This document shows positions 35,938-41,452 of a stretch of DNA of 64,000 nt, one piece after another. The notes beneath the pieces were generated by a model that did no database searches, was not told where the DNA came from, and saw only the letters and a list, made by a program, of their open reading frames with translations. How positions within the stretch are numbered: position 1 is the stretch's first letter; each line of letters opens with the position of its first letter. This DNA comes from Melioribacter roseus (GTDB lineage: Bacteria; Bacteroidota; Ignavibacteria; Ignavibacteriales; Melioribacteraceae). The stretch lies in contig DYLK01000010.1 in NCBI GenBank assembly GCA_020722065.1, forward strand, positions 1 to 64,000, in the 5' to 3' direction. Position numbers and translations under genes: made by a program.

Positions 35938-37041
35938 ATGAAAATTGAAAAGATTGAACTTCGGCACATTAAAATGGAATTAGTTTCTCCATTCACAACA
36001 TCAATGGGAACGGAATATGACGAGGAACACATAATTGTTCGCGTTGATGGAGAAGGTTTTACGGGTTGGGGCGAAAGTGTTGCTGAAGGAACTCCATTTT
36101 ATTCTTATGAAACGGTAACAACAGCTTGGCATATTTTGCAAGATTTTCTAATTCCATCAATTTTGGGAAAAAATATCCAAAATATTAATGAAGCAATTAA
36201 TGCTTATGAAAAAGTACGCGGACATAATATGGCTAAAGCTGGTTTGGAAGCTGCTTTGTGGGATTTATTTGCTAAATCTGAAAATAAATCGCTTTCAGAA
36301 ATGCTTGGTGGAACTAAAAATAAAGTTGATGTTGGAGTAAGTATCGGAATACAGAACTTCGAAGCAGAATTACTGGAAAAGATTGAAAATTATCTCGAAG
36401 AAGGATATCAAAGAATTAAAATTAAAATTGCTCCTGGGAAAGATATTCAATTTGTAAAAGCAGTAAGAAAAGAATTTCCAGAAATTTTATTTCAAGTTGA
36501 TGCAAATTCAGCTTATGAATTAAAACATATCGACTTATTCAAGCAAATGGACGATTATAATTTACTTTTAATTGAACAACCACTTAGTTATGAAGATATT
36601 TATAATCATTCAAAATTGCAAAAAGAATTAAAAACACCAATTTGTCTTGACGAAAGCATTCATTCATTGGAAGATACACAAGCGGCAATTGAATTGAACA
36701 GTTGCAAAGTTATTAACATAAAACCAGGAAGAGTTGGCGGATTTACAGAATCGAAGAAAATTCATGATTATTGTATGTCGAAAAATATTCCAGTTTGGCA
36801 CGGAGGAATGCTCGAAAGTGGAATTGGTCGGGCGGGAAATGTGGCACTTGCTTCATTGCCAAATTTCACTTTACCTGGTGATATTTCAGCAAGCAAAAGA
36901 TATTACAAGCAAGATATTGTCGAACCAGAATTTGTAGTAAATTCCGATGGAACGATGGATGTTCCAACAAAACCAGGGATTGGAGTGGAAATCAATTATA
37001 AAATGCTTGAAAAAGTTACAGTTGTAAGAAAAGAATATTAA
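35938..37041 (+). CDS. Enolase-superfamily enzyme, o-succinylbenzoate synthase/N-acylamino acid racemase type
   Basis: A 367-residue member of the muconate-lactonizing subgroup. The KxK acid/base motif is K161-I-K163. Metal ligands follow in QVDANSAY, LIEQPL and CLDES, and the second catalytic lysine is in NIKPGRVGGF. These are the features of MenC (menaquinone synthesis) and of NAAAR racemases, which cannot be separated by sequence alone. No other men gene is in the window. It starts at ATG 35938. It is flanked upstream by the transposase relic and downstream by a repeat island. Confidence 0.85.
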   Translation: MKIEKIELRHIKMELVSPFTTSMGTEYDEEHIIVRVDGEGFTGWGESVAEGTPFYSYETVTTAWHILQDFLIPSILGKNIQNINEAINAYEKVRGHNMAKAGLEAALWDLFAKSENKSLSEMLGGTKNKVDVGVSIGIQNFEAELLEKIENYLEEGYQRIKIKIAPGKDIQFVKAVRKEFPEILFQVDANSAYELKHIDLFKQMDDYNLLLIEQPLSYEDIYNHSKLQKELKTPICLDESIHSLEDTQAAIELNSCKVINIKPGRVGGFTESKKIHDYCMSKNIPVWHGGMLESGIGRAGNVALASLPNFTLPGDISASKRYYKQDIVEPEFVVNSDGTMDVPTKPGIGVEINYKMLEKVTVVRKEY

Positions 37042-37085
37042 ATAGTAATTAGTGAAAAGATTGATTGTATGATTGGTTGTGGTAG

Positions 37086-37105
37086 GTCAGACGTCCTTGT
37101 CTGAC
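37086..37105 (-). repeat. GTCAGAC palindromic repeat, copy 1
   Basis: Inverted repeat GTCAGAC-gtcctt-GTCTGAC. The surrounding segment (37081-37110), reverse-complemented, matches 41306-41335 nearly base for base (AATTGTCAGAC-RRGGAC-GTCTGA-S-CTACC). The two copies face opposite directions. Confidence 0.8.
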
Positions 37106-37274
37106 AATTACAAATTAAAGATGTCAGAACTATGATTTATATGATTAAATGATTTTTAAGATTAAAACATAAAGACAAAAGTAGTTTAAGATTATGAAAT
37201 TTTAGTTAGAAGCAAAATATTCTTGAATTAAAGAAAGTTTTGCTGTTCACTTGTTTAATAATAAAAAATAAAAT

Positions 37275-37410
37275 ATTGCAGTTCACTTTAGTGAACTGAT
37301 AAATTATATATTAATAAAATTGGCTTCAGCCACATAGAAAAATCACCAAATGATGCTAAAGCAAAATTATTTATCATCATTCAAATCAGTCAGCTAAAGC
37401 TGACTGCAAT
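37275..37410. repeat. BIME-like head-to-head pair of palindromes
   Basis: Four hairpins are arranged symmetrically. Outer pair: CAGTTCAC-TTTA-GTGAACTG (37279-37298) and CAGTCAGC-TAAA-GCTGACTG (37387-37406), each with 8-bp perfect arms. Inner pair: TGGCT-TC-AGCCA (37321-37332) and TGC-TAAA-GCA (37354-37363). The right outer element reverse-complemented reads ATTGCAGTCAGC-TTTA-GCTGACTGAT against ATTGCAGTTCAC-TTTA-GTGAACTGAT on the left, so arm bases changed together and pairing was kept. This is typical of REP/BIME elements. No REP transposase is in the window. Confidence 0.8.
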
Positions 37411-37463
37411 AAAAAATCAAATTACTTAATTAGTAGTTCATCTTAAGTTTACAAATTCAAGAG

Positions 37464-37488
37464 ATTCCCGATAGAAACATTCGGGAAT
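37464..37488. repeat. ATTCCCGA/TCGGGAAT hairpin
   Basis: Eight-base perfect arms with a 9-nt loop, followed by ATGACGGC and a run of Ts. It could work as a terminator, but no gene ends close upstream (menC-like stop at 37041). It resembles dispersed intergenic repeats more than a terminator. Confidence 0.6.
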
Positions 37489-37758: not shown

Positions 37759-39210
37759 TTGAACGAAATACGAGTACGTTTTGCTCCAAGTCCCACAGGT
37801 TATTTACACGTTGGAGGCTTACGAACAGCTTTATATAATTATCTTTTTGCAAAGAAAAATGGTGGAAAATTTATTTTAAGAATTGAAGATACTGACAGAA
37901 CAAGATATGTTGAAGGTGCGGCTGAACAATTATTGGATACATTAAAATGGACAGGTTTAGAATATGACGAAGGTCCAGATAAAGCTGGGGATTTTGGTCC
38001 TTATACTCAATCAGAAAGATTAGATATTTACAAAAAATATGCTTTAGAACTTATTGAAAAGGGAAAGGCTTATTATGCTTTTGATACTCCTGAAAGATTG
38101 CAAGAATTGCGTGATTATCAATATGCTAATAAACTTCAGCCAAAGTATGATAAACTTGCTTTAAATCTAACAAAAGAAGAAGTAAATGAAAAGTTGAAAG
38201 CTGGCGAACCTTATGTAATTCGATTGAATGTTCCAGAAAATGAAAGAATAATTGCGAAAGATTTGGTACGCGGATTAGTTGAATTTAACACAGATATTAT
38301 CGATGACCAAGTTCTGATGAAAAGCGATGGTTTTCCAACTTATCATCTTGCAAATGTTGTGGACGACCATTTAATGGGAATTTCACACGTAATTCGTGGC
38401 GAAGAATGGCTTTCTTCATTGCCAAAACATATTTTGCTTTATCAATATTTTGGTTGGGAAATTCCAGAATTTGCACATTTACCACTTTTGTTAAATCCAG
38501 ATAAAAGTAAATTAAGTAAAAGACAAGGCGATGTTGCAGTTGAAGATTATAAAAACAAAGGCTATCTAAAAGAGGCTTTGGTGAATTTTGTTGCACTTTT
38601 AGGCTGGAGTACAAGTGATAATCGTGAAATGTTTTCGCTTGAAGAATTAGTTGAAGAATTTTCGATTGATAGAGTTCACAAATCTGGAGCTGTTTTTAAT
38701 ATCGAAAAATTGAATTGGTTAAATGCCGAACATTTACGAAAGAAATCGAACGAAGAATTAACAAATATGTTGCGTTCTGAATACGACAAATCTCGATTTG
38801 CAGAAATTGAAGTATCTGACAAATATCTTTCTCAAGTTGTTGAAGCAATGCGAGAGCGAGTTTCATTTGTTAATGAATATATCGAAAAATCACCATATTT
38901 CTTTGAAAGACCAACAGAATATGATCAAGCGGTTTTACAAAAGCGATGGAAAGAAGATTCGTCGGCATTTCTGAAAGCTTATGCAGATAAAATATCAGAA
39001 ATTGAAAATCCAACCAAAGAAGATTACGATCACATTTTGCATCAACTTGCTGAAGAATGGCAAGTCGGAATTGGCAAAGTTATTCATCCTTTACGTTTGG
39101 CACTTTCGGGCGTTGGAATTGGTCCTGGAATGTTTGATTTAGCATTCATTTTAGGGAAAAATGAAGTAATAGCAAGAATTAACTTAGCAATCGAAAAAAT
39201 TAAAATTTAG
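37759..39210 (+). CDS. gltX: Glutamyl-tRNA synthetase
   Basis: A 483-residue class I synthetase. The ATP-binding motif is [25 protein letters not shown] (about residues 6-30) and the second is KLSKRQGDV near 253. The rest follows bacterial GluRS, including the C-terminal helical anticodon-binding part. It starts at TTG 37759, with GGAGGA 6 nt upstream. It lies directly before glnS (8-nt gap). With a separate GlnRS present, it is expected to charge only tRNA-Glu. Confidence 0.96.
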
Positions 39211-40949: not shown

Positions 40950-41033
40950 GCCGGAGTGGCGGAATTGGTAGACGCGCTTGACTCAAAATCAAGTATTCGC
41001 AAGGATGTGCCGGTTCGAGTCCGGCCTTCGGTA
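40950..41033 (+). tRNA. tRNA-Leu(CAA)
   Basis: A class II tRNA: acceptor GCCGGAG/CTTCGGT with discriminator A, anticodon loop CTCAAAA (anticodon CAA, reads UUG), long variable arm, T loop TTCGAGT. CCA is not encoded. Its 3' third is repeated immediately downstream. Confidence 0.95.
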
Positions 41034-41046
41034 CAAAATAGAATAA

Positions 41047-41098
41047 ATGTGCCGGTTCGAGTCTGCCTGTCGGCAGACAGGTCCGGCCTTCGGTACAA
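41047..41098 (+). repeat. Duplicated tRNA-Leu 3' end split by a 20-nt palindromic insert
   Basis: The T arm and acceptor end of tRNA-Leu (ATGTGCCGGTTCGAGT ... CCGGCCTTCGGTACAAAA) recur 14 nt after the tRNA. The copy is interrupted at 41063-41082 by CTGCCTGTCGGCAGACAGGT, whose core CCTGTC-GGCA-GACAGG is a perfect palindrome; GT is present on both sides of the insert. Read without the insert, the copy is identical over the T arm and acceptor. Confidence 0.85.
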
Positions 41099-41129
41099 AA
41101 AGGAAACCAAAATTGGTTTCCTTTTTTTG
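41099..41129 (+). terminator. Intrinsic terminator after tRNA-Leu
   Basis: Stem AGGAAACCA/TGGTTTCCT with a short AAAAT loop region and a run of seven Ts. It probably ends the gltX-glnS-tRNA-Leu transcript. Confidence 0.9.
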
Positions 41130-41207
41130 TTTTTGTCTAAACTATGATTTATTTGATTTTTAAATTTGCGAATTATTAAATCTGGTCATTCTGGTCGTTT
41201 TTATACA

Positions 41208-41229
41208 TTCGAGGAATAAGTACCTCGAA
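41208..41229. repeat. TTCGAGG/CCTCGAA hairpin
   Basis: Seven-base perfect arms with an 8-nt loop, in the gene-free island after tRNA-Leu. No copy was found elsewhere in the window. Confidence 0.5.
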
Positions 41230-41305
41230 AGAAGACAAAATTAATATTGAAAATCCGATAATCTGATTAATCAGTTTAATCAGTGGTTCAGACTTCTTTG
41301 ATTTC

Positions 41306-41335
41306 CAATTGTCAGACGGGGACGTCTGAGCTACC
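41306..41335 (+). repeat. GTCAGAC palindromic repeat, copy 2
   Basis: TCAGAC-ggggac-GTCTGA with flanks AATTG and GCTACC; the reverse complement of the copy at 37081-37110 differs at only a few positions. The pair stands on opposite sides of the gltX-glnS-tRNA-Leu segment and faces opposite ways. Confidence 0.8.
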
Positions 41336-41355
41336 GAGAGCAAATGATTTTCTCT

Positions 41356-41452
41356 ATGTCATACTGAGCGAATGCGAAGTATCTTGAGAAAATTACTAAT
41401 TACGAATTGTGAATTATTGATTAAAGATTCTTCACTTCGTTCAGAATGACAT
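41356..41452. repeat. Inverted pair of TGTCATNCTGARCGAA repeats
   Basis: Left copy 41356-41383 (ATGTCATACTGAGCGAA... GAAGTATC); right copy 41426-41452, reverse-complemented, reads ATGTCATTCTGAACGAA..GAAGAATC. The two differ by three substitutions and one or two bases of length, separated by about 42 nt of AT-rich sequence. This resembles a dispersed intergenic repeat seen in many bacteria. Confidence 0.75.

Follow-up and report, generated by a model that had tools for sequence, protein, structure and literature searches.

The hairpin array at positions 37273-37412 of the 64,000-nucleotide stretch of DNA analysed here (the window) is, judged by sequence comparison, probably a non-autonomous, BIME-like array formed by the orphaned ends of a TnpA subclass 1.2 Y1 (HUH) element. 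The complete element would have the form A-B-[tnpA]-B'-A', with A and B two hairpins and B' and A' their inverted counterparts, and the window would carry its gene-less form, A-B-B'-A', of which the genome holds repeated, BIME-like copies. What was directly observed is the structure of the array, its copies and their extragenic placement, the covariation of the hairpin arms, the homology to gene-bearing frames in other genomes, and the absence of a subclass 1.2 gene from the assembly to which the window belongs (G000).

The array sits between two plus-strand genes, whose open reading frames end at 37041 and start at 37759, and consists of four hairpins in the order A-B-B'-A', i.e., an inverted pair of a double-hairpin unit. 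Each unit has an A hairpin with an 8-bp stem and a TTYA loop, about 20 nt of spacer, and a B hairpin (TGGC-TTYA-GCCA-CAT). A covariance model of the A-B half unit, R1, matches the plus strand at 37273-37338 (69.4 bits, E 7e-13) and, as the inverted copy A'-B', the minus strand at 37347-37412 (61.6 bits, E 4e-11). The A hairpin, CAGTTCAC-TTTA-GTGAACTG, lies at 37279-37298 on the plus strand, and A', CAGTCAGC-TAAA-GCTGACTG, at 37387-37406 on the minus strand, on which its loop reads TTTA. Both have perfect 8-bp stems and lie in outer 27-nt segments (37274-37300 and 37385-37411) that are inverted relative to each other, with 78% complementarity; the symmetric four-palindrome array with inverted outer hairpins that a preliminary description had reported is thus real. 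The inner hairpins had been said to repeat the theme, which is true of B (TGGC-TTCA-GCCA, followed by CAT; 37321-37332, plus strand), but B', at 37354-37363 on the minus strand by its R1 match, is degenerate (TGC-TAAA-GCA on the plus strand), and the minimum-energy fold pairs AATGATG with CATCATT there instead. Unlike this copy, other copies and relatives keep B' as AGGCTTTAGCCT. Folded as single-stranded DNA, the array reaches -22.1 kcal/mol, compared with -10.6 +/- 2.4 kcal/mol for shuffled sequences (z -4.9; none of 200 shuffles folded as well). In a 0.81-Mb sample of the genome, made up of the window and other stretches, a stem-7 filter left just 35 tetraloop hairpins, four of which have TTTA or TAAA loops; whole-genome counts given below come from searches of the entire assembly.

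A DNA search of G000 (2.38 Mb, 69 contigs) found the repeat in 19 places, six near full length and 13 partial, and the other five near-full copies are 90-92% identical to that in the window. The covariance-model search proposed in the preliminary description gives 23 half units, so that the unit is not single-copy, and the accompanying search for a Y1 gene found one, which is RAYT-like and of class 2. Many copies are found a few hundred bases or less from the end of a contig, as repeats that break assemblies would be, and the true copy number is therefore probably above 19. All 17 copies that were checked are extragenic, in that none overlaps an open reading frame of at least 120 aa. The window array is embedded in a longer mosaic (37082-37488, plus strand), with a GTAG-tagged palindrome (GTAG-GTCAGAC-GTCCTT-GTCTGAC, 37082-37105) about 170 nt upstream of the array and the palindrome ATTCCCGATAGAAACATTCGGGAAT (37464-37488) at the downstream end. 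Alignment of the full copies shows that this mosaic is shared: the tagged palindrome (GTAG-GTCAGACG-TCCT-CGTCTGAC) stands directly upstream of A in five of the six, and five have the downstream block with ATTCCCGATAGAAACATTCGGGAAT. Since copies without the GTAG module exist (C13, C55 and the end of C50), the core is A-B-B'-A'. Inspection by eye showed no common outer inverted repeat, of the kind that marks a classical DDE-type MITE, flanking the six full copies.

Beyond this genome, R1 units were found in 41 of 58 related genomes, with the same A-B grammar and spacing and with a maximum of 74 in G027. On the strand that has the TTTA or TTCA loop, A is preceded by a foot of TTG, TAG or TAA; A and B are mostly spaced 36-46 nt, loop to loop; and B is a hairpin of 4-5 bp, usually GGC-TTYA-GCC and often with CAT behind it. 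The arms differ between genomes (CAGTTCAC, CCGTCCAC, CACTTGAC, CCACGACC and others). Among 50 distinct A cores that a sequence-only profile found outside its training set, 365 of 400 arm positions are paired (355 Watson-Crick, 10 G-T), from which it follows that the hairpin is conserved while its arms change. The 100% pairing in our alignment A3 was set aside as circular, its rows having been picked as hairpins, and replaced by this profile. For the earlier proposal that compensated arms betray selection on the hairpin, the covariation between genomes is the better argument; the comparison of A with A', on which it had been based, is no evidence by itself: both outer arm types (GTTCAC and GTCAGC) recur in other G000 copies and in G156, a genome of another genus of the same family, and the difference between them is not a private compensated change. 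An exact 22-nt pattern searched in 84,980 genomes returned six scattered palindromes, at most one of which (L016) possibly belongs to the A-B family. A GGCTTYAGCC core also occurs in Haemophilus influenzae, in a REP of the classical GTAG kind, so the TTYA loop alone is not diagnostic.

The connection to a transposase comes from the relatives. When the sequences on either side of 51 Y1 genes were scanned (the one of G000 and 50 of relatives), TTYA hairpins were concentrated around a subset whose products carry Y---Q--HH and a HUH motif. Y---Q--HH is the signature of TnpA Y1 subclass 1.2, and the 2018 survey that defined this subclass gave no REP-like structures for it and described it as generally without the typical terminal structures of IS200 (PMC6006769). 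When 25 subclass 1.2 proteins were placed in a tree, one side of a branch with 95/95 support comprised the seven TTYA-flanked ones and L121, where a hairpin with a TTTA loop is likewise present. With a profile of the seven (A2), we searched 164 genomes of the order. Within 450 nt of 29 of the 30 best A2 loci lies a TTYA hairpin whose stem is at least 8 bp long, where the scanner was tuned on the TTYA family, the loci are the best matches of a profile made from flanked genes, and the genomes are related; it is present at all 24 non-seed loci, the sole exception (L167) being one of the six seed genes. At 21 of the 30, the nearest strong hairpins face each other across the gene (> gene <), which gives the frame A-B-[tnpA]-B'-A'. 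Among the controls, a stem-8 TTYA hairpin was near 1 of 43 loci, namely 1 of 26 in a group mixed from class 1.1 and class 2 by simple motif labels and none of the 17 other subclass 1.2 loci. Nineteen further loci, 18 of them outside the order, all have TTYA hairpins (12 with a stem of at least 8 bp, 13 with the frame), and the frame is also seen in further classes of the phylum.

Genomes with a strong gene of the TTYA clade have a median of 11 units, as against 0-1 in the others (Mann-Whitney p 2e-4, relatedness not corrected). The array-rich genomes G019, G036, G039 and G047 have just weak A2 matches. No A2 match was found in G000, in its congeners G001 and G003, or in G010, whereas the congeners G002 and G004 have one; G000 and G010 hold A-B units despite this, and G010 has no Y1 match of any kind. 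Other subclass 1.2 lineages (L125, L143, L144, L147, L149) have flanking palindromes that are unrelated yet follow a similar arrangement, which suggests that such hairpins might be a general trait of subclass 1.2. Tandem GCCCTTTAGGGC arrays at two genes of G044 (L123, L151) have the same loop and belong to another subclass 1.2 branch; they were left out of the counts.

Homology between the window array and a gene-bearing frame is seen with G156 (L178). Here, A-B-B'-A' arrays alternate, a subclass 1.2 gene lies between a B and a B', and a gene-less array adjoins the gene-bearing frame; the A hairpins include both the CAGTTCAC and the CAGTCAGC arms of the window. Over 136 aligned positions, the gene-less array shares 84% identity with that of the window; for the two ends of the gene-bearing frame, whose flanks were set side by side for this comparison alone, the figure is 77%. 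G156 thus provides, at 77-84% identity, the matching ends of an autonomous element, of which G000 has none. A different picture emerges in G027, in which many copies lie inside an element with terminal inverted repeats, and the recent spread of the arrays there is therefore probably passive. These are B'-A'-A-B arrays (L204-L210, L212) within inverted ends CAATGCTGTCAACTTA..TAAGTTGACAGCATTG, and several of the copies are nearly identical. In the same genome, a small element with imperfect ends GGCTGTGTGAAAA..TTTTCACACAGCC interrupts an A hairpin in the region of its TTTA loop (L217, L219) with an apparent duplication of CTTTAG, a case of hairpin tips as insertion targets.

The preliminary description had pointed to RAYT (Y1) transposases as the enzymes that copy such units. 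A link to Y1 transposases does exist in the relatives, but the linked ones are of class 1, subclass 1.2, and not class 2 RAYTs. The sole Y1 gene of G000 (L001, 1267-1900, on contig C56) is class 2 by its YILKNP motif and scores 59.6 bits against a model of REP-associated transposases, below the cut-off of 80 bits. That this gene serves the array as a classical REP/BIME is a very improbable reading, even though a class 2 RAYT-like gene is present and the palindromes alternate as in a BIME. We rejected the gene as the partner of the A and B hairpins, since on either side of it stands a different palindrome that has dispersed copies of its own (inverted AACCTTCGAGG...CCTCGAAGGTT, TTCGAGG..CCTCGAA; about six copies in the 0.81 Mb sampled). 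A and B have no GTAG or GTGG foot, GTAG being confined to the separate palindrome at 37082; the single control locus with a stem-8 TTYA hairpin is all that the 26 class 1.1 and class 2 loci of relatives offer; and G010 has arrays although it lacks Y1 matches. The RAYT-like gene and its palindromes make up a second, independent REPtron-like system. The GTAG-tagged palindrome is a separate REP-like family with the classical foot, and its general form, GTAG-NTCAGACG-NNNN-CGTCTGA, has 29 matches in G000 with at most two mismatches, including that at 37082-37104 of the window, and none in the reversed control. A second mosaic cluster of palindromes, at 41040-41440 of the window, directly follows a tRNA gene (40950-41033), whose 3' end is partly repeated in it. 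The cluster also holds a CATTCTGAACGAAGTGAAGAATCTT repeat, a TTCGAGG..CCTCGAA palindrome (41207-41230) and, on the minus strand at 41312-41334, a GTAG-tagged palindrome.

Another possibility is that the array owes its subclass 1.2 ends to descent and is now spread without Y1 activity, by recombination between mosaic repeats or inside other transposons. The missing subclass 1.2 gene, the longer mosaic that the full copies share with the GTAG-tagged and downstream palindromes, and the arrays that ride in the G027 element would all fit, and the window array may by now simply be carried along within a mosaic repeat and spread passively in G000. As the whole explanation we nevertheless consider it unlikely, given the bare copies without mosaic modules, the rise of unit number with the presence of the gene, and an assembly, itself a MAG, that is broken at many copies, where a copy of the gene may have been lost. 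A hairpin array selected for host regulation, as a transcription terminator or as a stabiliser of mRNA, would account for the intergenic position, often downstream of genes, for the strong folding and for one terminator-like site on the minus strand (37298-37279). We regard it as highly improbable, because neighbours differ between copies and units take any orientation relative to genes, because an Rfam search of the window matched just the nearby tRNA and not the array, and because of the transposase linkage. A chance cluster of palindromes in AT-rich DNA is already refuted by the fold z of -4.9, the six near-identical dispersed copies and the phylum-wide family.

If the array is, as we favour, the gene-less end array of a subclass 1.2 element, its mobilisation might proceed as follows. 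The A and B hairpins would fold when the DNA is single-stranded, and the transposase would recognise the stem, the TTYA loop and the TTG, TAG or TAA at the foot of A. It would then cut and rejoin the DNA nearby via its tyrosine, as related Y1 enzymes do; if IS608 and TnpA-REP are a guide (PMC8266576), the bases of the foot would select the cleavage site. In this way the array would be copied or moved. Loop and spacing would be kept, and the arms of each element would change together with its transposase.

Placing the array in a REP/BIME-like class, as had been done from the window alone, proves justified: its palindromes of 20-40 nt are extragenic and multi-copy at a modest number, its units alternate in orientation and form mosaics with other repeats, and loop and flanks are conserved while the arms covary. 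Short extragenic palindromes in inverted pairs and mosaics, with conserved loop and foot, and a Y1/HUH transposase gene flanked by the same palindromes are likewise the features of REPs, BIMEs (REPINs) and the REPtrons of class 2 TnpA-REP/RAYT (PMC3733652, PMC8266576). That it is a classical RAYT-served REP is not supported, however: the palindromes beside the class 2 RAYT-like gene of G000 are others, just 1 of the 26 class 1.1 and class 2 loci of relatives has a stem-8 TTYA hairpin nearby, the linked transposase is of subclass 1.2, the unit is a double hairpin, and 23 half units in G000 and up to 74 in relatives compare with the more than 100 copies usual for REPs. With IS200/IS605 elements and their gene-less derivatives (PATEs), which keep the ends and lose the gene, the family shares a class 1 Y1 transposase and hairpins at both ends, but here the ends form an inverted, symmetric double-hairpin frame. 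The flanked genes of the relatives agree with subclass 1.2 as defined in Y---Q--HH, a length near 150 aa, low copy number and the presence of Bacteroidetes among the hosts, yet that account gives no REP or terminal structures, whereas the TTYA clade is consistently framed by A/B hairpins (PMC6006769). The "atypical secondary structures" of subclass 2.6, palindromes without GT[AG]G by Bacteroidetes Y1 genes with copies elsewhere in the genome, are similar, but those genes are of class 2 (YIH[QN]NP) (PMC6006769). No paper naming the A-B repeat was found in the open-access literature searched.

Subclass 1.2 transposases were described in 2018 as IS200 relatives without IS properties or recognisable ends, and their substrate was previously unknown; the A-B frame is a candidate for it that can be tested directly. 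The findings suggest that BIME-like arrays arise from a class 1 branch as well as from RAYTs. We lean, if only slightly, towards a second REP/REPtron lineage that runs through the phylum separately from the class 2 RAYTs, in which subclass 1.2 transposases, each within an inverted double-hairpin frame with arms of its own and a shared TTYA loop, would seed gene-less BIME-like arrays such as the one described here. The naturally varied arms would then offer many pairs of transposase and hairpin for mapping recognition.
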